From Acidobacteriota bacterium (GTDB lineage Bacteria > Acidobacteriota > Thermoanaerobaculia > Thermoanaerobaculales > Thermoanaerobaculaceae), in the NCBI GenBank assembly GCA_004298115.1, contig SCRJ01000193.1:1-37732 (forward strand): a stretch of 37,732 bases of DNA. Reading direction: 5' to 3'. Position 1 is the first letter of the stretch; every line of letters starts with the position of its first letter. The notes under the pieces were generated by a model. It was not told the DNA's origin, did no database searches, and saw only the letters and a list, made by a program, of their open reading frames with translations. A program made the position numbers and the translations under genes. Positions 3,989 to 34,168 of the stretch are shown piece after piece.

Positions 3989-6436
3989 ATGCAGCTCTAC
4001 TGCGGCACGACCACCCAGTTCGTCGACGACACACTCCAGAACCGGATTACCGGTAGGCTCGAGGAAGCTTTCTTCACCCATTTCCGCTACCGCCCTTCTC
4101 ACAGCGAGGTGAACTCCTGGCGGAACTCCCTGCGGGCCATGTGCAACGTCGTCCAGTACGCCCGGCTCGACGACAACGGGCTCGTCTTGGAGTACCAGCT
4201 TCCCCTCACGTCGAAGCGCCTCGATTTCATGATCACAGGCCGCGACGCGCGGGGTGCCGCGAACGCGGTGATCGTCGAGCTCAAACAGTGGTCCGAGGCT
4301 CAGGCCAGCAATGTGGACGGATGTGTGGCGACCTTCGTCGCCGGAGCGGTGCGAGACGAGCTTCACCCGTCCGTCCAGGTCGGGCAGTACCACCAGTACC
4401 TGGAGGACTTCAACCCGGTGTTCTCCTCAGGGGACGTCACCCTGAGCGCCTGCAGCTACCTCCACAACTGGTCCTTTGACGCCAGGAGCGAGTTCTTTTC
4501 TTCCCGGCACAGCTCGGCCATCGCCCGGTACCCCCTGTTCGCCGGGGACCAGACCACCGGGCTCGCGACCTTTATGACGAGCCGGGTGGACCGCGGCGGC
4601 GGGTCCGAGGTCCTCCAGACCGTGCTCCAGAGCAAGTACAAGGCGAGCAAGAAACTCATGGAACACGTCGCTGGCGTGATCGCCGGCAGGCCCGAGTACG
4701 TGCTGCTCGACGAGCAGCTCGTCGTCTTCGAGACCGTGCTCGGCCTTGCGCGCTCGGAGCTCGACGGCCCGCGCCGGACGGCGCTCATCGTGAAGGGCGG
4801 GCCGGGCACCGGCAAGTCGGTCATCGCCCTGAACCTCATGAGCCGCCTGCTGCGCGACGGGTTCAACGCCCATTACGCGACCGGCTCGCGGGCGTTCACC
4901 GAGACGCTCCGGGCGATCATCGGCCGCCGCGGCGCGCCTCAGTTCATGTACTTCAACTCGTACGGCGAGGCCGAACCGGACGCGATCGACGTCCTGATCT
5001 GCGATGAGGCCCATCGCCTCCGCAAGCTGAGCGGAGACCGCTTCCGGCCGAGCCGCACCGGAAAGCCGCAGGTCGAGGAAATTCTCAACGCCGCCAAGCT
5101 CGCCGTGTTCCTCATCGACGACCGCCAGGTCGTGCGTCCGAACGAGGTCGGTTCCTCCGCCTACATCCGGGAGCATGCCGAGCGGCTCGGCTGCGAGGTG
5201 CGGGAGCACACCCTCGAAGCGCAGTTCCGGTGCGCCGGTTCGGACGGGTTCGTGAACTGGATCGCCAATACGCTTGCCGTGGAGCGAACGGCAAACGCGA
5301 TCTGGGAGGGCGACGAGCGGTTCGATTTCCGGATCTTCCCGTCCCCAGAGAGCCTCGAGCAGGCCATCCGTGCCCGCGCGGCGCAGGGCCACTCGGCGCG
5401 TCTGGCGGCGGGGTTCTGCTGGCCATGGTCGAAGCCGAACCCCGACGGCACCCTCCTGGATGACGTCGTGTTGGGCGACTGGCGCCGGCCCTGGAACGCG
5501 AGGCCGGAAGCGAAGAGGCTTGCGGCCGGCATCCCGAAGGCTCAGCTGTGGGCGCACGAACCGGGCGGGCTCGATCAAGTCGGCTGCGTTTACACCGCCC
5601 AGGGGTTCGAGTTCGACTATATCGGGGTGGTCTTCGGCCGCGACCTCCGGTACGACATGGACGCGCAGGCCTGGATCGGCGACCGGAAAGCCTCATTCGA
5701 CCGACCCGTCAAACAGGGTGGCGAAGCCTTCATCGACCTGGTCAAGAATACCTATCGCGTGCTGCTCTCCCGGGGCCTCAGGGGCTGCTACGTTCACTTC
5801 GTGGACCGCGACACCGAGCGGTTCTTCCGCACCCGCATCGACGGACGGGTGGCGGAACCTCGGCTCGACGAGTTGCTGGCGGCGCCGACCGCGGTTGAGC
5901 CGGAGCATGTCGAGCCGTTCCGGAGAGTCCCACCAGGGGACGTCCGCCCGTTCGAGACGTGTGTGCCGCTGTACGACCTCGCGGTGGCGGCCGGTCGGTT
6001 CTCGGACGCCCAGGCGATCGACGAGGTTGGCCTGGGCGATGAAGACCGCCGAGCCGGAGATTTCACCTGGGTCGAGCTGCCGGAGGCGTTTCGGCCGCAG
6101 CGCGGTCTCTTCGTCGCACGGGTCGTCGGAGACTCGATGAACCGCCGGATCCCCAACGGCGCCTGGTGCCTGTTCCGGCGCGCGTCCGCGGGCTCGCGAA
6201 ACGATCGGGTCGTCGTCGCTCAACACAGAGACATCGCGGACCCGGAGACGGGCGGCCGGTTCACCGTGAAGGTCTACGAGAGCAAGAAGGAGCGGCTGCC
6301 CGACGGCTCGTGGCGCCACACGTCCATCGTTCTACGACCGGACACGACCGCGGCCGGGTACGAGCCGATCGTCCTGGCGCCCGAAGCCGCCGCCGACCTG
6401 CGGATCGTGGCTGAGCTTGTGGCCGTTCTCGGCTGA
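3989..6436 (+). CDS. PD-(D/E)XK nuclease - DUF2075 helicase - S24 peptidase fusion
   Basis: An 815-residue multidomain protein. Residues about 60-130 carry a PD-(D/E)XK nuclease core (Asp79 in KRLDFM; Glu97 and Lys99 in VIVELKQW). Residues about 250-640 are a DUF2075/Schlafen-group-3-type superfamily 1 helicase: Walker A GGPGTGKS with Lys276, Walker B DVLICDEAHRLR, later motifs YTAQGFEFDYIGVVFG and NTYRVLLSRG. Residues about 700-815 form an S24/LexA-UmuD-like serine peptidase domain with Ser716 in VVGDSMN and Lys761 in FTVKVY, the expected Ser-Lys pair. The protein could therefore cut nucleic acid, translocate or unwind, and self-process or signal on DNA damage. It is the last gene of the TPR-MazG cluster. 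All key residues appear intact. A defence role is inferred from domains and neighbours. Confidence 0.88.
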   Translation: MQLYCGTTTQFVDDTLQNRITGRLEEAFFTHFRYRPSHSEVNSWRNSLRAMCNVVQYARLDDNGLVLEYQLPLTSKRLDFMITGRDARGAANAVIVELKQWSEAQASNVDGCVATFVAGAVRDELHPSVQVGQYHQYLEDFNPVFSSGDVTLSACSYLHNWSFDARSEFFSSRHSSAIARYPLFAGDQTTGLATFMTSRVDRGGGSEVLQTVLQSKYKASKKLMEHVAGVIAGRPEYVLLDEQLVVFETVLGLARSELDGPRRTALIVKGGPGTGKSVIALNLMSRLLRDGFNAHYATGSRAFTETLRAIIGRRGAPQFMYFNSYGEAEPDAIDVLICDEAHRLRKLSGDRFRPSRTGKPQVEEILNAAKLAVFLIDDRQVVRPNEVGSSAYIREHAERLGCEVREHTLEAQFRCAGSDGFVNWIANTLAVERTANAIWEGDERFDFRIFPSPESLEQAIRARAAQGHSARLAAGFCWPWSKPNPDGTLLDDVVLGDWRRPWNARPEAKRLAAGIPKAQLWAHEPGGLDQVGCVYTAQGFEFDYIGVVFGRDLRYDMDAQAWIGDRKASFDRPVKQGGEAFIDLVKNTYRVLLSRGLRGCYVHFVDRDTERFFRTRIDGRVAEPRLDELLAAPTAVEPEHVEPFRRVPPGDVRPFETCVPLYDLAVAAGRFSDAQAIDEVGLGDEDRRAGDFTWVELPEAFRPQRGLFVARVVGDSMNRRIPNGAWCLFRRASAGSRNDRVVVAQHRDIADPETGGRFTVKVYESKKERLPDGSWRHTSIVLRPDTTAAGYEPIVLAPEAAADLRIVAELVAVLG

Positions 6437-6469: not shown

Positions 6470-6846
6470 ATGCCACCCCGGCTCGGGGAGCCTCTCCAGC
6501 AACCTGATCAGATAGGTACCGTGTATCCCGATGTCACACTTCTCGGCGGGCAATCGTGACGTACGAGTAGAACCACCCCGTCGGCAAGGGACAGCGGCGC
6601 GCTCGGCAACCGTACGCCTCCAAGCTGGAGCCGCACCGCGAACCGACCCCAAAATCATCAGATCGTGATGCTCGGTACCTTTGCGGGAGGTCGAGGGGCC
6701 CGGGTATTCAAGCGCTGGCGACACAGTTGTCGTGCAGCGTCGTCCCTGTGGACGACTTAGGCCACCTCCGGGGCCGCCTATTCTGAACGCCGCCATGGAC
6801 GCGCGGGAAGCGCATAATGAGTTGTACTAGGAGGTTCTGAGACCAA

Positions 6847-6939
6847 ATGACCGCTAACGACAAACGCAACCCGCGCCTCCGACTCCCGGTTTGTCAGGTT
6901 TCGATAGTCCACTTAATCTGCGTTGGTCGCCCTAGCTGA
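6847..6939 (+). CDS. possible 30-residue leader peptide
   Basis: A short frame beginning MTANDKRNPRLRLPVCQV and ending TGA 3 bases before the ATG of the UvrD-like helicase. AGGAGG lies 12 bases upstream, a rather long spacing. The helicase start has no ribosome site of its own, so coupling through this frame is possible. The same stretch can also be read as a degenerate attC-like site, and the two readings compete. Existence of the peptide is unproven. Confidence 0.25.
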   Translation: MTANDKRNPRLRLPVCQVSIVHLICVGRPS

Positions 6940-6942
6940 CCA

Positions 6943-8961
6943 ATGCCGATCACTCCAGCCCAAGTCCGAGCCGCCCAGGGTGTTCAGCACGCGGCTGCTC
7001 ATGATGCCGCAGCCCAGGTACGGCTCGTAGCAGGCCCCGGGACCGGCAAGTCCTTTGCCATCGAGGAGCGCGTCCGCTGGCTCCTAGCTCAGGGGACCGC
7101 CCCGGGAGAGATCTGCGCGGTCTCCTTCACCCGGGCATCCTCGCTCGACCTGCGTCGTCGCATTCAGTCGTTCTGCCAGCAGACCGGTCAACCAACAGCC
7201 ACGAACGTCCGCGTCAGCACCCTCCATTCTCTGGCGTTGCGGACGCTGCGCGCCGGGGGCTTCCTGACGGCATATCCTGCGGAGCCGCTGGTCATGAACA
7301 CCTGGGAGTTGGAGACCATCTTCGACGCGGAGTTCGGAAGCACGCGCAATCTTGGGAAGACTCGGTGCGAGCAGGTCCGGCTCGACCACGAAGCATTCTG
7401 GAGCACGGGCCAGTGGGGACCTCCGAACTACATTCCCCCGGACCCAGCGATTTCCCCAGCGGAACGGGCCCACTTCCAGCAGTTCCACGGCCCGAGGACG
7501 CAGATCTACTCATGCGTTCTGCCGGGAGAGATCATCCGGCAATGTGTGGACCACATGAACGCGGGGACGCTTGATCCCATTGCTCTCCTCAGCATCCGTC
7601 ACCTAATCGTCGACGAATACCAAGATCTGAATCCGGTTGACCTTGAGTTCGTGGATCTCATGGCCGCCCGGGGGGTGCTTCTCTTTGTTGCGGGCGATGA
7701 CGACCAGAGCATCTATTCCTTCCGGTACGCGTCTCCGGCGGGCCTCCAGGACTTCCCAATCCGCTATCCAGCAGCGGGGCAGCACACGCTGTCCGACTGC
7801 TTCCGCTGCACGCCGGCGGTGCTTGCGGCAGGCCAAGCGGTAATCGGCGCCAATTTTGACCCAGCACGCATCTCGAAGAATCATGTCCCCCTGTACGCCA
7901 CCGCGGCGCCGCCTCAGCAGGGAGTGGTGCACCGCTGGAGCTTCACTAGCGGGGGTGTGGAGGCGCGAGCGGTGGCCGAGTCGTGTCGCGACTTAATCCA
8001 AGCCGGCATCAACCCGCGGGAAATACTCATTCTCCTCAGCAACACGCGGACTCTCTGGTCTGAATTGAGGGCGGAGTTCCAGACTGCAAGCGTGCCATGT
8101 GAACCGCCGAGAGCGGAGACGTTTCTTGACTCCGTCACGGGCCGATGCGTTCTGGCCGTCCTGCGGATCGTCTGCGACGCCGAGGACTACGTAGCGCACC
8201 GCACCGTCCTTGGTCTTCTCCGTGGGGTGGGGGTCGGGACCTGCAACTCCATCGCCGGCGCGGTCATCACCAACAATCTGAACTTTCGCGATATCTTCTA
8301 TCAGCCCCTACCAGGTAGCGTCTTCACTGGTCGTCCACTCACGGGGTTAAATCGAGCCAGAACCGTGCTGGCCCAGGCTGCGACGTGGCAGTCCACCGAC
8401 ACGCTCGCCCAGCGGGCGGCCGACATCGCGGGCATCGTGACGAGTATGTTCGGGACGCACGAGGCGCACGCGTGGCAGACGTTCGCAGCGACGCTGCCAG
8501 CGGGTGCAACGATCGGGGAGGTTCGGGACTTCCTGTGGGCCGATACGGATGAACAGCAGAGCGCCCTTCTTCAAGCGGTTTACGAACGACTCAACCAACC
8601 AATCCCGGGCGCCGGACTCCTTCCGGATCGGGTGCGCGTATTAACCATGCACGGAGCGAAAGGGCTCTCGGCCAAGGTGGTCTTCATCCCCGGACTCGAA
8701 GAGCAGATCCTACCGGGCCCGTGGCGCCAACCTTACCCAGGACTCGTATTGGAGGCGGCGCGTCTTCTCTACGTGTCGGTCACCCGAGCCAGGGGCGCGT
8801 GCGTCATCAGCTTCGCGCGGACACGCATTGTCAACGGGCAGTTCAATCAACAAGTCCCATCTCGGTTTTGCGCTCAGTTGGGGGGAACGTTTGGCTCAAG
8901 AGCGAGCGGGCTCTCTGTACCAGAGGTGCAGGCACTTGCACAGGAGTGTGCAACGCTGTGA
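6943..8961 (+). CDS. UvrD/Rep-type superfamily 1A helicase
   Basis: A 672-residue ATP-dependent 3'-5' DNA helicase. Motifs in order: Walker A GPGTGKS (Lys36), SFTRAS (motif Ia), VDEYQDLN (motif II, about residue 223), GDDDQSIYSFR (III), VRVLTMHGAKGLSAKVVFI (V) and EAARLLYVSVTRAR (VI). It is somewhat shorter than UvrD/PcrA and has no visible nuclease domain. Stand-alone UvrD-like helicases are common in defence islands and as partners of nucleases; none is directly beside it here. It heads the less GC-rich block of attC-separated ORFs and is followed after 68 bases by attC-like element 1. It could therefore be an unusually large cassette gene. Confidence 0.93.
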   Translation: MPITPAQVRAAQGVQHAAAHDAAAQVRLVAGPGTGKSFAIEERVRWLLAQGTAPGEICAVSFTRASSLDLRRRIQSFCQQTGQPTATNVRVSTLHSLALRTLRAGGFLTAYPAEPLVMNTWELETIFDAEFGSTRNLGKTRCEQVRLDHEAFWSTGQWGPPNYIPPDPAISPAERAHFQQFHGPRTQIYSCVLPGEIIRQCVDHMNAGTLDPIALLSIRHLIVDEYQDLNPVDLEFVDLMAARGVLLFVAGDDDQSIYSFRYASPAGLQDFPIRYPAAGQHTLSDCFRCTPAVLAAGQAVIGANFDPARISKNHVPLYATAAPPQQGVVHRWSFTSGGVEARAVAESCRDLIQAGINPREILILLSNTRTLWSELRAEFQTASVPCEPPRAETFLDSVTGRCVLAVLRIVCDAEDYVAHRTVLGLLRGVGVGTCNSIAGAVITNNLNFRDIFYQPLPGSVFTGRPLTGLNRARTVLAQAATWQSTDTLAQRAADIAGIVTSMFGTHEAHAWQTFAATLPAGATIGEVRDFLWADTDEQQSALLQAVYERLNQPIPGAGLLPDRVRVLTMHGAKGLSAKVVFIPGLEEQILPGPWRQPYPGLVLEAARLLYVSVTRARGACVISFARTRIVNGQFNQQVPSRFCAQLGGTFGSRASGLSVPEVQALAQECATL

Positions 8962-9029
8962 GTGGACCCGGGTATGAGACCAGTGGGCGCGGAGACGCTG
9001 CAATCCAGACGGGGCTACGTGATTCAGGC

Positions 9030-9131
9030 GCCTAACAGCGCGCTGGACCGGGCGGCCTGTCCTGTCACGCCCGTTGCATGGACGCAACGGGCGCGCCAGT
9101 CCGGCCCGCCGGTCAGCGCGAGCGTCTAGGC
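9030..9131 (+). repeat. attC-like element 1
   Basis: It begins GCCTAAC and ends GTCTAGGC, which is one inserted base away from GTTAGGC. Inside is a perfect 10-bp stem (CGCCCGTTGC at 9068-9077 with GCAACGGGCG at 9084-9093, loop ATGGAC). An outer pair of GC-rich arms near GACCGG/CCGGTC flanks it. The whole 102 bases fold into one long imperfect hairpin, as attC sites do. It lies between the helicase gene and the next ORF. Confidence 0.6.
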
Positions 9132-9150
9132 TGCTGGTGGGGAGCTAGTC

Positions 9151-9657
9151 ATGGATCAGTGGAGCACCCTTAACGTTGCGATGAATGTCTTCTCAACGGC
9201 TCTAGAACTGTTCGATGAACTAAAGACTCCGGAGTTGTTCGAAGCAGCCAGCCCCTACCCGCTGATGGAGGCGAAGGCGACGAGCCAGGACCTGACCGAC
9301 GTCATTGCGGCACTCCCGCCGGAGATCGTCGAAAGGAACTACCACATTTTCCAACAGCAGATCCTGCGCTGTATGGTCACCACGGACTTTCACCCGGTTG
9401 ATCACCTCGTCAATTTCAGCAGCCTCACGTTCGCGTACGAGTCGGCTCCGGCCAAGGCGATTGATACCATCTTTCGGGACTGCCTTCCGCGATACCTGGA
9501 GCTGCGGGGCTTTGATGCCACGTGGGAAGAAGTCGCCGAGAACTATTTCCTCGCAATTCCCGCCGGCGGCGATGTGGTCCTCAACACCCGTCTCCACTTT
9601 GAGCATCCCTCGGCCATCGGGTTTGCGATCATCCGCCGTGCGTACAGTGGGATGTGA
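9151..9657 (+). CDS. hypothetical protein of cassette 2
   Basis: A 168-residue soluble protein beginning MDQWSTLNVAMNVFSTALEL. GGGGAG precedes the ATG at a good distance. It is acidic and mixed alpha/beta in appearance, with no transmembrane segment, signal peptide or recognisable catalytic motif. I do not know the family. It begins 20 bases after attC-like element 1 and ends 45 bases before element 2, so it occupies one complete cassette-sized unit. Base composition is lower in GC than the surrounding chromosome, in keeping with acquisition. Confidence 0.7.
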   Translation: MDQWSTLNVAMNVFSTALELFDELKTPELFEAASPYPLMEAKATSQDLTDVIAALPPEIVERNYHIFQQQILRCMVTTDFHPVDHLVNFSSLTFAYESAPAKAIDTIFRDCLPRYLELRGFDATWEEVAENYFLAIPAGGDVVLNTRLHFEHPSAIGFAIIRRAYSGM

Positions 9658-9702
9658 GTTCAGCGTGCCTGCGGCCCAATTAGCGAGGAGTACCCGCTGG
9701 CT

Positions 9703-9786
9703 GCCTAACCAGCGCCTGCAGCGGACACGGACGATGTTCCTGCGTCGCGGGCGTGGCTCCGGTCGTCATCGTGCCGTGCGTAAGTC
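9703..9786 (+). repeat. attC-like element 2
   Basis: It starts GCCTAAC and ends near GTAAGTC (two mismatches from GTTAGGC). CACGGACGATG at 9726-9736 pairs with CATCGTGCCGTG at 9767-9778 apart from one bulged G. A single unpaired base inside a stem is a feature attC sites use for strand choice. The right core is degenerate, so it may be inactive. Confidence 0.5.
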
Positions 9787-9842
9787 CCGCATGTCACCAG
9801 GCGTGCTGCCGAAGTGCGGCGCAGGCTTCACTGAGATGAAAC

Positions 9843-10517
9843 GTGTCTGATCGCCCACCCTACTTCATGCACGTCATGACCGAGTTCTTTGGCGCCTGGG
9901 AACAGCGCGTTGTATTCCTAGACGAGCTCGCAGCGTCAGAACACGAGCCGGAGGCCTTCCTGCTGGCCTCGTGTTACATCGAAGCCCTCGGCCATGGGCT
10001 CTATCCTGATTGCGAGGGAAGCCAGAGGGCCTTTTGCAAAGCTCTCATCGAACATGGTGGAAGTGCTGTCTTCGGTGGGCATCATCCTCGCGCGCTCAAG
10101 GACTGGCTCACACATGCCCAGGAAGCGTGGGCTCGCGGCGTCGCAGTCAAAGTCGGTGCGGTCCTCGACGGTCTAATTGGGACCTTATTCACGGAAGGGG
10201 AGCTCCGTCGAGCACTGGAGCCGTACGTCACAACCGCTGAGATGAGGCATCTCACTCCTAGCCTCTGGCATGCGACGTACGCTGCAGTCGTCTACACTGA
10301 CACGCGGAGTGAAGCCGTACACAACTTTCCTGCTACTGCAGTCGAGTTCTCGGCCAGCACCTTCGGTGGACAGGCAGTGCCCGCCATCAACTATAGGCTG
10401 CTTGCTCCCGCGCTCAAGGCGATCCTCATGCACTGCGAGAAGGTCTCGTTTGAGTCGCGCCTTTACTTCGGCCATGACTTACGCAAGCTCTTCTCGGCGA
10501 CGTCGAGTAAAGTCTAA
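9843..10517 (+). CDS. hypothetical protein of cassette 3
   Basis: A 224-residue protein with no family I recognise. The start could be GTG 9843 (MSDRPPYF) or an ATG at 9867 (MHVMTEFFGAWEQ); neither has a strong ribosome site. It is rich in Leu, Ala and His, probably mostly helical, without signal peptide or membrane segment. The TAA stop overlaps the GTCTAAC core of attC-like element 3, so gene and site share bases as in compact cassettes. Confidence 0.68.
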   Translation: MSDRPPYFMHVMTEFFGAWEQRVVFLDELAASEHEPEAFLLASCYIEALGHGLYPDCEGSQRAFCKALIEHGGSAVFGGHHPRALKDWLTHAQEAWARGVAVKVGAVLDGLIGTLFTEGELRRALEPYVTTAEMRHLTPSLWHATYAAVVYTDTRSEAVHNFPATAVEFSASTFGGQAVPAINYRLLAPALKAILMHCEKVSFESRLYFGHDLRKLFSATSSKV

Positions 10518-10587
10518 CCAGCGCTTGCGGTGGACCGGGCCAGGGGGGCGCAGGGGTTGGGGGTCGTGCGGTGTGTGTGGGTAAACT
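10512..10587 (+). repeat. attC-like element 3
   Basis: It begins GTCTAACCAGCGCTTGCGG and runs through GTCGTGCGGT to a degenerate end near GTAAACT. It is a clear sequence relative of element 5: both contain GTGGACCGG after the left core and GGTCGTGCGGT before the right end. No good right-hand GTTRRRY is present. Confidence 0.45.
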
Positions 10588-10657
10588 AGTCGTATGCGAA
10601 GAGTGAAAGTGAAAGGCCAACTGAATGGTAGCGTCGACCGCGCAGAAGGAGGTTCCA

Positions 10658-11020
10658 ATGAAACGTGACCTCGACCTCATTCGGAAGATCGTACTGGCGA
10701 TCGAGGAGTCGCCTTCCGGGTTCGCTCCTAAGCTCTCGTTCGGGGGTTACAGCGATGCGCAAATCGGGTATCACGAATATCTTCTGATTAGCGCCGGCTA
10801 CGCTACCGGACCAGAGACTACGAACATGGGGAGTGAAGGGCCAGAGGCAATGATCAGAAGCCTCACATGGGCTGGGCACGAGTTTGCTGACGCCGCCCGT
10901 GACGACTCGCGGTGGAATAGGGCCCTCGGGATGGTGAAGGACAAGACCGGCACCATCACTCTTGAACTCCTCAAACAGCTTCTCAGCACTCTTATGAGGA
11001 ACGCGTTGGGCCTACCGTGA
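10658..11020 (+). CDS. DUF2513-family protein
   Basis: A 120-residue protein matching the DUF2513 pattern: MKRDLDLIRKIVLAIEES at the start, GYSDAQIGYHEYLLISAGY in the middle and LTWAGHEFADAARDDSRW further on. DUF2513 proteins are small, probably winged-helix-like, and often found in phages and mobile regions; their function is not established. The ATG at 10658 is fixed by a strong ribosome site (AAGGAGGT, 10646-10653). The frame could be extended upstream to 10625, but without support. The gene ends 7 bases before attC-like element 4. Confidence 0.85.
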   Translation: MKRDLDLIRKIVLAIEESPSGFAPKLSFGGYSDAQIGYHEYLLISAGYATGPETTNMGSEGPEAMIRSLTWAGHEFADAARDDSRWNRALGMVKDKTGTITLELLKQLLSTLMRNALGLP

Positions 11021-11027
11021 GCGAGCG

Positions 11028-11095
11028 GTCTAACCGGCGCTTGCGGGTGGCGCCTCACTGGCGTTCGTCGGTGTTCCTGAGGCGCGGCGTTAGGC
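11028..11095 (+). repeat. attC site (element 4, best preserved)
   Basis: It runs from GTCTAAC (11028-11034) to GTTAGGC (11089-11095), both fitting the integron core consensus RYYYAAC...GTTRRRY. It is 68 bases long, within the normal attC size range. GCGCCTCA (11050-11057) pairs perfectly with TGAGGCGC (11078-11085). This is the strongest evidence that the block is integron-derived. Confidence 0.72.
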
Positions 11096-11110
11096 CGGAG
11101 GGAGACAGCC

Positions 11111-11563
11111 ATGAAGATCTATGCTGAACATGGGGCGCTGCATCATGAGTTGAAAGGGTTCCAGCAGCGGGGGATCATCGAGCTCGTGACCTTCCCCTAC
11201 GAGAACAAGAACCACAATATCCCTGGGTTGGCGACGCCTTCGGCGGCCCAGCTCGGTGATCTAGGGAACATCACCATCGGACAAATGAAGTTCAGGATCG
11301 GAGACATGTCCGCCTCGGAACGATACGAGGAGATTCTGTCAATCGTGGGTCCCCGGAACCGTCGCGATGCTTTGCATGTCGATTCTGCCTACAAGTCAGG
11401 TTGCGCAGCGATGCTTTCTCGCGATAGGCACATCGTTGGCAAGGCAGCTCGGCTGTACGCTCTTCTGGGCCTCCGCGTCTTTCATCCTGATGTCGAGTGG
11501 GAGGGCTTCGTCCAGTTCGTTGTGGATTCCCCGGAAGCAGCGAGGGTGCCGTCTACCGTCTAA
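11111..11563 (+). CDS. PIN-like domain protein (tentative)
   Basis: A 150-residue protein. The C-terminal part, RRDALHVDSAYKSGCAAMLSRDRHIVGKA followed by LGLRVFHPD, resembles the second half of PIN nucleases: an Asp-containing helix, then a (T/S)-R-D-x-x-I strand, then a strand ending in Pro. An N-terminal catalytic Asp is not obvious, since the start reads MKIYAEHGALHHELKGF, so activity is uncertain. GGAG precedes ATG 11111. No antitoxin-like partner is adjacent. The gene begins 15 bases after attC element 4, and its TAA overlaps the core of element 5, so it forms a complete cassette. Confidence 0.65.
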   Translation: MKIYAEHGALHHELKGFQQRGIIELVTFPYENKNHNIPGLATPSAAQLGDLGNITIGQMKFRIGDMSASERYEEILSIVGPRNRRDALHVDSAYKSGCAAMLSRDRHIVGKAARLYALLGLRVFHPDVEWEGFVQFVVDSPEAARVPSTV

Positions 11564-11631
11564 CAGGCGGGTGCAGTGGACCGGCCAATCGGGCCGCAGA
11601 GTTGGTGGTCGTGCGGTATCGAGGGGTAGGC
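11558..11631 (+). repeat. attC-like element 5
   Basis: It starts GTCTAAC and shares GTGGACCGG and GGTCGTGCGGT with element 3. The right end is degenerate (GTAGGC at 11626-11631, one base short of GTTAGGC). It marks the right edge of the cassette-like block; the high-GC chromosome with the MerR gene starts about 45 bases later. Confidence 0.5.
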
Positions 11632-11675
11632 GGTTACCCGGGGCGACCTGATCCGCCCGCGATTTAATTCGACAC

Positions 11676-18116: not shown

Positions 18117-18224
18117 GGATTGCTTCGTCCGCCTCACTACGCTCGGCGTCTTCGCAATGACCGTGGGTCCCCAGTGTCATTGCGAGCCACGCCGCAGGCG
18201 GGGCGAAGCAATCTCGGGGTCACC
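18117..18224. repeat. two CATTGCGAG palindromic modules
   Basis: Two inverted modules: GATTGCTTCG...CGCAATGACC (about 18117-18163) and GTCATTGCGAG...GAAGCAATCTC (about 18174-18224). Each carries its own short variable inner region. They belong to the same repeat family as those inside the DUF2779 gene and at 33892-34168. Confidence 0.8.
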
Positions 18225-19302: not shown

Positions 19303-21116
19303 GCCAACTCGCGCAGTCGCTCCAGCAGCCTGACCATACTCATGGTGTCGACGGCGCAGTAGCGGAGCAAGGCGTCGCGCAGGTGCGCTCGCTCGGCGGC
19401 GGTCATGGTCTCGCCGTGGAACAGCAGGCGCACGAGCTCGACGGCCGCGGTGGCGCCTTCGGCAACTTCGAGATCGGCGTAGGGGGAGCGGGAAGGGGAT
19501 TGATTCGTCCCGGGTGAGGGCGGGTTCGGAGGGGTTGGCGGTGACCACGAGATTGCTTCGTCGTCCCGCCCGTCGGCGGGACTCCTCGCAATGACCGGTT
19601 GTGCGGAGGAAGGAGGCGTCGCAGCGATCGTTCCCTCCTCTGTCATTGCGAGTCCCGCCGCAGGCGGGACGAAGCAATCTCGAGGTCCTGGGAGGGACGG
19701 TGGGCACCCAGTTGGGGACGGGATTGCTTCGTCGTCCCGCCCGTCGGCGGGACTCCTCGCAATGACAGTGGGGTCGGACGGGATTGCGTCGTCGCTTCGC
19801 TCCTCGCAGTGACCGGAAGGGGTGGGACGACCCGCAATGACAGCGGGGACGAGGGCGGGGAGGACGGACTTGAGGCTGAAGCTGCCGTGGAAGTCGGGGT
19901 GGTAGACGTGCGCGCGGACGATCGGCAGCGGGTCGGCAAGCCGCCCGGCGATGGCGAGCAGGTCGTCGGCAAGCTCGGGCACGGCGTCGGCGAGGCGCTC
20001 GATGCAGCCGCGCTCGAAGCCGGCGTTGTAGGCGACGACCGTGCGGGCGCCGGCGCACGCCGCGACGAGCGCGCGCGCCAGCTCCGGGCGCGGGTCGCCG
20101 GGGCCGTCCGCGAGCCACTCGTGGTGCACGAGCGTCTCGCCGGCGGCCTCGACGTCGAAGCTGAACTGCACCGGCACCTGCTCGTACGGGTGGCAGCCCT
20201 CCCACACCGGGATCGCCGGGGCGACGGTCTCGAAGTCGAGGAACGCGAGAGGCGAATCGAAGACGCGCAGCGCCCGGTCGAGGCCAGGCTCGACGACGAT
20301 GCGTCCGGTCAGCACAGCCTCGCGCTGGCGCGCCTGGACGGCGTTGAGGCCGTCGGCGGGCAGCTCGGCGATCGTCTCGAACCCGGCGGCGATCAGCGCC
20401 GCGCCGCCGTGCGGCGCGCGGTAGAGCGTGCTGACGTGGTGCTCGGGCACGCCGGCCCAGCAGCGGCTCATGAACGGGCACTCGTACGGCTTGGTGCAGT
20501 GCTCGCCGATCGGCACGTCGGGGAGGCCGCCCGCGAGCATGCGCAGCTGGCCGGCGATCAGCTCCGGCAGCTCGGGCTGCCACGCCTCGGCCGCGCCGGT
20601 GACGTCCTCGCGGACGAAGAGGTCCTCGAGGTCGGGGAACGTGCACTCGCGGTTGAGGTGCATCAGCTCGGCGCCCTCGACGTCGAGGCCGGCGGCGCGC
20701 AGGACGTGGAGCTGGACCGCGACGTCCGGGATGTGCTCGTCCTTGATCCTGGTGGAGGACTTCACCTCGATCAGGCGGAAGCGGTCGCCGTCGCGCTCGA
20801 GGATGTCCACCGCGGCATAGACGCCGCCCGAGTCGAACGACGCCTCGTAGACCGCCGGGACGCGCTGCTCGAGCAGGCGCTTCGTCGTCGCGAGCCGGCG
20901 GGCGAAGGCGTTGTGCGGCGCATCCACCAGCGCCCCGCCGGGCACGTACGTGCGCGCCACCTCGCCAACGCGCGTGCCCTGGTCGAACACCGCCTGCTGC
21001 GCCGGGGTCGGGACCAGCTCCGGCGCGTCCGGCTCGTGCACCTTCCACCACAGCTGCTTGTGGCACTGGAGCCCGGCCGTGAACCGGGTCTTCGACAGGC
21101 GGTATCGGCTGGCCAT
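19299..21116 (-). CDS. DUF2779 protein: Cas4-like nuclease fused to DEDD exonuclease, with repeat insertion
   Basis: A 605-residue protein. Residues 1-220 resemble a Cas4-type PD-(D/E)XK nuclease: Asp104, then Glu117 and Lys119 in LIEVKSS, with Cys18, Cys207, Cys213 and Cys219 positioned for an iron-sulfur cluster. Residues about 290-605 are an RNase H-fold exonuclease (DUF2779): LDFET (Asp294, Glu296), VAYNAGFERG and YCAVD (Asp590). Between motifs two and three, residues about 426-543 are low-complexity and contain VIARSPADGRDDEAI twice; this is the translated CATTGCGAG repeat. The insertion keeps the frame and adds about 118 residues. The protein presumably degrades nucleic acid; its biological role is unknown. 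Confidence 0.85.
   Translation of the reverse strand: MASRYRLSKTRFTAGLQCHKQLWWKVHEPDAPELVPTPAQQAVFDQGTRVGEVARTYVPGGALVDAPHNAFARRLATTKRLLEQRVPAVYEASFDSGGVYAAVDILERDGDRFRLIEVKSSTRIKDEHIPDVAVQLHVLRAAGLDVEGAELMHLNRECTFPDLEDLFVREDVTGAAEAWQPELPELIAGQLRMLAGGLPDVPIGEHCTKPYECPFMSRCWAGVPEHHVSTLYRAPHGGAALIAAGFETIAELPADGLNAVQARQREAVLTGRIVVEPGLDRALRVFDSPLAFLDFETVAPAIPVWEGCHPYEQVPVQFSFDVEAAGETLVHHEWLADGPGDPRPELARALVAACAGARTVVAYNAGFERGCIERLADAVPELADDLLAIAGRLADPLPIVRAHVYHPDFHGSFSLKSVLPALVPAVIAGRPTPSGHCEERSDDAIPSDPTVIARSPADGRDDEAIPSPTGCPPSLPGPRDCFVPPAAGLAMTEEGTIAATPPSSAQPVIARSPADGRDDEAISWSPPTPPNPPSPGTNQSPSRSPYADLEVAEGATAAVELVRLLFHGETMTAAERAHLRDALLRYCAVDTMSMVRLLERLRELA
19547..19814. repeat. four CATTGCGAG palindromic modules inside the DUF2779 gene
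   Basis: Modules lie at about 19547-19595, 19641-19687, 19720-19767 and 19780-19814, in alternating orientation. Each pairs a GTCATTGCGAG end with a GAAGCAATC end around a short hairpin such as TCCCGCC...GGCGGGA. They fall within the coding frame and create no stop codon. Confidence 0.85.
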
Positions 21117-25117: not shown

Positions 25118-25237
25118 GACCCCTCCGTAGGCGGTGCGCCCGGTGGCCACCCGTCAGGCGCGCGCACCGTCGCATCTATCGTACCGCCGCGGGCGGGCCA
25201 CGGACCCACCCAACCTCGCGCTGCCGCGTCTCTGTAG

Positions 25238-25309
25238 CGGCCGATGCTCGCATCGGCCGGCGCGCCGCGATCCACGTGGACAAGGCCGGCGTTTGCAAGC
25301 AAACGCCGG
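25238..25309. repeat. two adjacent palindromes downstream of DUF1501
   Basis: CGGCCGATG and CATCGGCCG (25238-25259) form a 9-bp stem with a CTCG loop. This palindrome, preceded by GTAG, recurs at 28825-28846. A second perfect 11-bp stem, CCGGCGTTTGC/GCAAACGCCGG, lies at 25286-25309. Both sit in the 263-base gap between the cytidylate-kinase-like gene and DUF1501. Confidence 0.7.
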
Positions 25310-25380
25310 TACGGAGACAACGACCGCGCGCCCGGCGGTTGCGCCCCGCCTCTGGCCGGTGCGCGGGGACGGGGCGCCGC

Positions 25381-28473: not shown

Positions 28474-29030
28474 CGTGGGCTCCTCCCGGATGCCTGTGGT
28501 GACGATCCGCCCGCCCCAGGGTTGACACCAAGACTGCGATCGCGTCTCGTATACGCCACGCGTGCGCGCCGCGGCTGTGCTCCCCGTCACCGATTCGCGC
28601 CCACCAGACCCGCACAACCAGGGACGGCCACCGATTCTTCGGGGTCGGCGCCCTCGCCCGCCCTGTGGTCGCGTTCCAGACGAATGTAGGGGCGGGGCTT
28701 GCCTGCCCCCGCCCGCGCTGGACGCGTGGACTTCCACCCACTCGCGGGCGGCCGCAAGGGCCGCCCCCACATGACGACCAACGGCGGGGAAGAAGGCGGC
28801 GCGGCGCGCCGCCAGTTTCCGTAGCGGCCGATGCTCGCATCGGCCGACAAGGCGCACGGTCGTGGGCCGGAAGGCGAGCCGGGGCACGCCAGCGGACGAC
28901 GATTCTCTTGACATGTCTATTCGGTGTCGTGACAATCTCAATCGAGCTGCAATCGGACACGGTTCGCGGGCGGGATGGGTCGATCGGGGCGGCGGTTGGC
29001 GCCCCGCCGGGTTCTCCCGAGGAGGCGACG
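28474..29030. other. divergent intergenic region rich in repeats
   Basis: About 550 bases upstream of both the DUF1800 operon (minus) and the Ig-like secreted gene (plus). It holds a GC-rich repeat pair at about 28682-28771 and the palindrome CGGCCGATG/CATCGGCCG at 28825-28846 (second copy of the one at 25238). A plausible promoter lies at 28908-28936. No gene is supported. Confidence 0.6.
28908..28936 (+). promoter_or_regulatory. sigma-70-type promoter for the secreted Ig-like gene
   Basis: TTGACA (28908-28913), 17 bases, GACAAT (28931-28936; 4 of 6 consensus bases). It gives a leader of about 90 bases before ATG 29031. Confidence 0.45.
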
Positions 29031-33755: not shown

Positions 33756-33891
33756 CGCGCGCCCGCCCATCGGGGGACCCCACATCCAAGACCCGAGGGC
33801 GGTCGGGTCCGACATGAGGGGTTCCGTGGGGCAGGCGCCCTTGCCCGTCCTGGCGTCGCAGGGTTGGGGTACGAGGGGCCGCGCCGACCGC

Positions 33892-34168
33892 TGTCATTGC
33901 GAGGTTCCCGAGCGGAGCGAGGGAACCGCGGCAATCTCGAGGTCGCCGCTGGGTACCTCGGCATCGCGGCCGGCACGAGATTGCTTCGTCGGTGCTCGCT
34001 GTGCTCGCACCTCCTCGCAATGACCGGTTTTCCCCCGGTCATTGCGAGGTTCCCGAGCGGAGCGAGGGAACCGCGGCAATCCCGAGGTCATCGCGGGGCA
34101 ACTCGGCATCGCCGTCGGCACGAGATTGCTTCGTCGTCCCGCCGTTGGCGGGACTCCTCGCAATGACC
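33892..34168. repeat. tandem pair of CATTGCGAG composite palindromes
   Basis: Two units of about 132 bases (33892-34025 and 34038-34168) are near-identical over most of their length. Each starts GTCATTGCGAGGTTCCCGAG and ends CTCCTCGCAATGACC, so each is bounded by inverted ends and has hairpin arms inside. Only the inner part of the right arm differs: GTGCTCGCTGTGCTCGC in one and a TCCCGCC...GGCGGGA hairpin in the other. They fill the 498-base gap 33756-34253 together with GC-rich spacer. Confidence 0.85.

Follow-up and report, generated by a model that had tools for sequence, protein, structure and literature searches.

Why should a short cassette array that lacks an integrase gene begin with an integron attachment site? 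This question was raised by the window, a 37,732-nt stretch of an Acidobacteriota genome (GCA_004298115.1, contig SCRJ01000193.1), in which the initial annotation had described an integrase-less integron cassette array (CALIN) with five attC-like sites. That label was fair. When the whole window was searched by tblastn with IntI, no match was obtained at E ≤ 10, and the decayed array contains at least two attC sites in a single orientation (four homologous sites, all on the + strand). It is not a complete integron, intI not being adjacent to attI. Judging from the sequence, we think it quite likely that the locus is a satellite integron platform, in which a copy of the host attI heads a short decayed array and would be served in trans by a distant IntI.

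Layout of the array and condition of its attC sites

The features of the array are listed in Table 1. The five RYYYAAC left cores reported earlier are present (9030, 9703, 10512, 11028 and 11558), and two ORF stops do lie inside cores (10512-10518 and 11558-11564). Position 6922, given earlier as the start of the array, is not part of an attC but the crossover of an attI copy. The cargo is lower in GC, as had been stated: between 7 and 12 kb most 1-kb steps have values of 0.58-0.65, while those of the flanking DNA are mostly 0.66-0.78. As for the cargo itself, the calls of a UvrD-type (SF1) helicase and of DUF2513 held, and the PIN-like call for 11111-11563 was not confirmed, with no Pfam match at E ≤ 1; the same search gave none for the genes at 9151-9657 and 9843-10517. 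The helicase also matched GajB profiles (PADLOC GajB, E 1.8e-40).

Table 1. Coordinates of the attI block, cassette genes and attC elements in the window.
Feature	Position	Strand	Remarks
attI block	6744-6929	+	~185 bp; copy of the intI-adjacent attI of contig C9; crossover G6922|T6923
-10-like hexamer CATAAT	6813-6818	+	conserved with the C9 and G003 copies (alignments)
Shine-Dalgarno-like AGGAGG of leader ORF	6829-6834	+	
Leader ORF across the attI crossover	6847-6939	+	stop 3 nt upstream of helicase ATG
First cassette gene, 672-aa UvrD/PcrA-type SF1 helicase	6943-8961	+	PF00580 E 1.6e-34; PF13361 E 4.5e-16
attC 1	9030-9131	+	~90% identity to canonical attC L160:6771-6871; folds as attC, z -6.56
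Second cassette gene, 168 aa, no assigned family	9151-9657	+	no Pfam match at E ≤ 1
attC 2	9703-9828	+	right end decayed; score 66 to canonical attC L047:1615; no attC fold, z -0.03
Third cassette gene, 224 aa, no assigned family	9843-10517	+	stop within left core of attC 3
attC 3	10512-10638	+	right end decayed; score 91 to canonical attC L040:10416; no attC fold, z 0.63
Fourth cassette gene, DUF2513	10661-11020	+	PF10711 E 1.2e-22
attC-like element 4	11028-11095	+	canonical outer boxes only; homology at null level; z -0.27
Fifth cassette gene, 150 aa, no assigned family	11111-11563	+	stop within left core of element 5
attC 5, 3' side truncated, array end	11558-11631	+	score 79 to first 74 bp of L040:10416

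A motif-and-stem scorer, which returned 110 candidates at a score of at least 8 in 79 outside loci vs 5 in Markov-shuffled DNA, found no attC candidate in the window, and an Rfam scan of the window gave 0 matches. Because the scorer had found none, the attC sites were judged by homology, using as a yardstick 18 candidates from congeneric genomes, each lying downstream of the attI match of its locus and on the attI strand. Elements 1, 2, 3 and 5 aligned with canonical attCs of the congeners with scores of 152, 66, 91 and 79, respectively; when each element was shuffled 100 times, the highest scores were 29-36. Element 4 (11028-11095) scored 29 vs a null of 30. Its two canonical boxes and a short stem, which the initial annotation had emphasised, are real, but the stem is badly placed and the element neither shows homology nor folds as an attC.

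Four of the five right cores had been described as degenerate. Most of the attCs are indeed decayed; three right ends had been misplaced, and one site is truncated. With homology taken into account, elements 2 and 3 end at ~9828 and ~10638, that is, ~40-55 bp beyond GTAAGTC and GTAAACT, respectively, and element 5 is homologous but cut short, its end lying near 11631. The right box of attC 1, GTCTAGGC, has one extra base. When the bottom strands of the four complete elements were folded singly, element 1 alone adopted the attC fold (z -6.6); the canonical relatives gave z values of -10.7, -5.1 and -6.5 at the L160 and L040 sites and only -1.4 at the L047 site.

The end of the array falls between 11631 and 11663; from the latter position on, the flank was 90.8% identical to the congeneric genome G003, in which no array lies at the matching right-flank position and the genes on the left side differ. 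The SLFN-type left neighbour of the window array was present in 0 of the 8 other genomes of the genus. An orthologous array locus in G003 was rejected, the right flank being common, the array missing and the left genes different.

The attI block, its copies in the genus and their history

Elsewhere in the genome, an intact intI, attI and canonical attC were found on contig C9. In the host genome G000 (3.97 Mb, 203 contigs), the full IntI was encoded on this contig alone (459 bits vs a cut-off of 265), where intI, the attI-like region and the canonical attC follow in this order on one strand. The block at the head of the window array was 71% identical to the C9 attI over 190 bp (E 5.8e-15), with an alignment score of 95, where 300 shuffles reached 31 at most. 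When 12 copies were compared, the conserved block extended from ~6742 to 6931 in the coordinates of the window, and conservation peaked beside the crossover. The block qualifies as an attI site by its homology to the intI-adjacent site and by a crossover of the form G|TTRRRY at the first cassette; the box in the window, GTTGGTC, differs from GTTRRRY at one position, which falls within the cassette-derived part. A phage or plasmid source of the block was considered and rejected, as it had no match in phage or plasmid collections.

A plain CALIN could also have formed if cassettes had been inserted off target into a genomic site without attI; this route is among the origins proposed for CALINs, together with intI loss and rearrangement, in the accessible part of PMC8618304, and it would accord with an intI that is not nearby. 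However, the first cassette lies behind a full attI block, which also stands at the head of other arrays in the genus, so that this origin is scarcely credible.

A sequence-only attI model (R1), built from five attIs including that of the window, was run on 17 genomes of the family and matched in 9 of 9 genomes of the genus vs 0 of the 8 others. The window attI scored 90 bits with this model, being itself one of the five sequences from which it was built. After removal of two antisense echoes from 22 R1 rows, 20 attI loci were retained, of which four were adjacent to IntI. The 16 loci without IntI comprised two at the dnaE locus (G005 and G002), two truncated, one decayed (G000_C68), two core-only and nine intact copies, and the window attI is counted among the last. 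Five copies were found in G001, including an orphan that shares its contig with intI and lies ~28 kb from it, so binning cannot account for that orphan; most of the genomes compared are probably MAGs. Of the 16 loci lacking IntI, 10 had attC matches downstream; every match was on the sense strand, and none lay upstream. Since several attC queries derive from the loci matched and thus include self matches, independence holds for the remaining loci only. No downstream attC match was found at the other six (G003_C201, G001_C19, G000_C68, G004_C312 and the two truncated copies), and at G003_C201 and G004_C312 less than 1 kb of sequence lies downstream of attI. No IntI was found in G007 and G008, and the dnaE neighbour was likewise missing from both bins.

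Flanking genes allowed two orphan loci to be recognised in several genomes, namely locus A (G003_C99, G007_C88 and G001_C52) and locus B (G003_C201, G008_C140 and G001_C45). The cassettes at both loci differed in every between-species comparison, and the switch occurred at the attI crossover. In five orphan-locus pairs, identity was 59-93% to the left of the crossover and 48-53% to the right of it, where shuffled means were 49-51%. At locus A, the 181 bp that lead up to the crossover were 93% identical between G003 and G007, identity beyond it was 48% (shuffled mean, 50%), and the corresponding values of the other four pairs were 59-78% and 49-53%. When G001 and G007 were compared at the same locus, both flanks of the locus were conserved (77-78%), and the stretches between them, ~5.8 and ~1.0 kb, respectively, were quite dissimilar. 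At the dnaE locus, where intI is lost, G005 and G002 shared 89% identity to the left and 91% to the right of the crossover, as expected for an array frozen after intI loss.

A tree was calculated from 12 of the 20 attI copies (185 columns), leaving out the truncated, decayed and core-only copies and G006_C99. The copies were grouped by lineage with support of 100/99. For loci A and B and the intI locus, which had been defined by synteny before tree building, grouping by locus was rejected by the AU test (p 8e-5, 7e-4 and 1e-6, respectively). Such lineage-wise (concerted) evolution would result if the copies exchanged sequence or if attI was copied repeatedly to the same places, either being sufficient; independent attI insertion at identical loci would also account for the tree.

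These observations bear on whether the orphan attIs are dead leftovers of separate complete integrons, each of which lost its intI in place. Such a history fits the dnaE locus of G005 and G002, where intI is gone, the attI is decayed and the cassette is frozen, and the decayed attCs of the window would also agree with it. However, a tblastn search at E ≤ 1e-3 of the 16 loci without IntI revealed a 71-aa IntI remnant at the dnaE locus of G002 and none at any other locus. The between-species differences of the cassettes at loci A and B, and the evolution of attI copies by lineage and not by locus, likewise argue against leftovers, which we regard as an unlikely explanation. Under the preferred reading as satellite platforms, the C9 IntI would insert and excise cassettes at the orphan attIs in trans.

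Within this set, the window copy shared 67-72% identity with the five further copies in its lineage and formed the longest branch of the 12-copy tree. Because its attI is diverged, three of four complete attCs lack the fold and the last attC is truncated, the copy looks decayed and may be dead. From the long branch and the lack of fold in most attCs, it is probably an ageing satellite still shaped for expression of the helicase. Its earlier characterisation as old and immobilised is largely apt for the window copy, most attCs being decayed, but missed that the array has its own attI, that the genome carries an intact intI and that copies occur throughout the genus.

The leader ORF and probable expression of the first cassette

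In 14 of the 18 copies with a readable crossover, a leader ORF starts exactly 75 nt before the GTT, behind a Shine-Dalgarno-like sequence. The ORF spans the crossover, and its stop codon is supplied by the cassette near the start of the first gene. The leader is thus similar in kind to ORF-11 and ORF-18 of the class 1 site attI1, described in the accessible text of PMC8876359 as short ORFs that have their own Shine-Dalgarno sequence, span the crossover and end in the first cassette; the sequence is different here, and the fixed distance of 75 nt is found in most copies. Coupling was counted in 18 of the 20 copies, and the three frames offered 12, 15 and 9 usable cases. Where the first cassette gene lies in another frame, its start codon overlapped the stop as NTGA in 7 of 12 cases for the leader frame, compared with 0 of 15 and 0 of 9 for the two remaining frames, while the counts in later cassettes were 3 of 9 vs 2 of 13 and 0 of 10. 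No Shine-Dalgarno sequence of the helicase itself was evident. The attI leader is probably coupled to the first cassette gene, which in the window is the UvrD-type helicase; ribosomes that end the leader ORF would restart on this gene.

Translational coupling has been demonstrated for ORF-11, with amino-acid changes having a slight effect (PMC8876359, accessible sections). In agreement with this slight effect, no codon-position signal was seen for the leader peptide here: in 12 of the 14 copies starting at -75, differences by codon position were 431/377/478, with no coding-type bias, and coding selection on the peptide was rejected. A scan with the sigma-70 promoter consensus found none; a cassette promoter in the block, which carries the conserved -10-like hexamer, is nevertheless probable. 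Each attI block, with its own leader and probable promoter, would drive transcription, giving several expressed first positions per genome.

The conservation of the -10-like box, the Shine-Dalgarno sequence and the leader start, the strong start-stop overlap with the first gene and the decay of the window copy for recombination would all suit a promoter and leader module that was copied for expression, with the attC-like sites as passengers and the integrase having no present part. Conservation is maximal at the crossover and not at the leader start, however, and sequences change between species exactly at the crossover, so that a pure expression module seems very improbable. A satellite platform remains the reading we prefer.

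Parallels in known integrons and in other genomes

The window locus resembles the chromosomal integron on C9 in its homologous attI, its attC-bounded cassettes in one orientation and its attI leader ORF, and differs from it in having no intI. Several attIs per genome are seen here, while a single attI is described as typical in the available sections of PMC9024848. The same sections state that IntegronFinder 2.0 detects no attI outside class 1, so the attI of the window would stay unseen. The array shares with CALINs the absence of a nearby intI and differs from them in the conserved attI at its head. We found one precedent in which a CALIN headed by attI accompanies a complete integron, the Shewanella prophage M16-3 (PMC9892861, as far as its accessible text goes); it is a single cryptic prophage, whereas here there are up to five copies per genome, they occur throughout the genus and some loci are conserved. 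In Xanthomonas, CALINs without intI occupy conserved chromosomal positions across species, and the accessible part of PMC12444791 mentions no attI, unlike the array of the window; these fixed-locus CALINs may be candidates for the satellite-attI explanation. The integrons of Treponema, a member of another phylum, resemble those studied here in that intI is transcribed toward attI and the cassettes, and differ in having one attI per integron (PMC3607928, accessible portion). No account of several chromosomal attIs served by one integrase was found in full-text searches of a collection that lacks most subscription papers. The class 1 intI points away from the cassettes, whereas the intI studied here points the same way as they do.

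A CALIN with its own attI would offer a distant integrase a ready landing site and a point of expression, so that a genome would have several parallel first cassette positions and not one. Satellite attIs would change models of cassette expression, array turnover and CALIN decay, and genomes are worth scanning for extra copies of their own attI, a step which annotation tools omit. More tentatively, and with the odds in our view against it, chromosomal integrons in general could be multi-platform: attI blocks would be copied genome-wide, exchange through IntI or homologous recombination would keep them alike, a single integrase would shuffle cassettes among them, and many CALINs would be satellites that go unseen as their attI is unannotated. 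If this is true, the extra copies that occur independently in Lampropedia (three) and G010 (one) would make it a general feature and not a peculiarity of one genus.

Extra attI copies were found in three of five cases, namely the studied genus, G010 and Lampropedia, and not in Duganella or Methylobacillus. G010, which belongs to another genus of the same family, carries its attI twice; the second copy (80% over 141 bp) has the same GTTAGGC at its end and an ORF behind it, and the motif-and-stem scorer found no attC there. Duganella, Methylobacillus and Lampropedia had been chosen as single-attI controls. Methylobacillus gave a single attI match, and Duganella gave the integron locus only, with a second match ~320 bp away on the same contig that is probably a cassette repeat. 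Lampropedia puyangensis had three extra copies of the attI region (84-89% over 111-140 bp), and no IntI match was obtained in the 10-18 kb stretches around them. Two of these copies are followed by attC candidates, and the third lies at a contig end.

Further attI copies and an inverted repeat inside attI blocks

Copies of attI, the docking site of the integron integrase IntI, were found at additional loci. Downstream of the decayed third attI-like copy in the window's genome lay a 375-aa ORF, with no attC match; the second copy in G010 (another genus of the same family) was followed by a 232-aa ORF, with no attC detected. Lampropedia puyangensis, meant as a single-attI control, carried three additional copies, two of which had attC candidates downstream; the remaining copy lay at a contig end.

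An inverted repeat, GCAAACCGAG...CTCGGTTTGC, lies within attI directly 5' of the crossover, at L040:10027-10060 and in further attI blocks. It may serve in IntI binding or form an RNA hairpin.

Coordinates of the features
Feature	Location	Remark
Third attI-like copy, window's genome (G000:C68)	L161:2906-3021	29.5 bits; decayed
Second attI copy, G010 (L197)	G010:C32:16892-17032	3' end at same GTTAGGC
Additional attI-region copy, L. puyangensis integron	L206:8954-9091	no IntI nearby
Additional attI-region copy, L. puyangensis integron	L207:9709-9848	no IntI nearby
Additional attI-region copy, L. puyangensis integron	L208:9141-9251	no IntI nearby
815-aa protein, Schlafen group 3 helicase and S24-type peptidase domains	window 3989-6436	
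Short dispersed repeats	window 18176-18216, 19642-19682, 25230-25347, 28821-28851, 33890-33988, 34038-34168	

Other features of the window and of an intI locus

The Schlafen/S24-type protein was absent from all eight other genomes of the genus. The six short dispersed repeats also matched G003:C100, a contig of another genome of the genus (L172:18578-18868), and may represent a small family of repeats in this genus. The dnaE-like gene upstream of intI (L009:1-3721) has an open frame with many in-frame GGACCACGGACC repeats, also as the reverse complement, which give peptide runs such as TDHGPRTTDHGPR.
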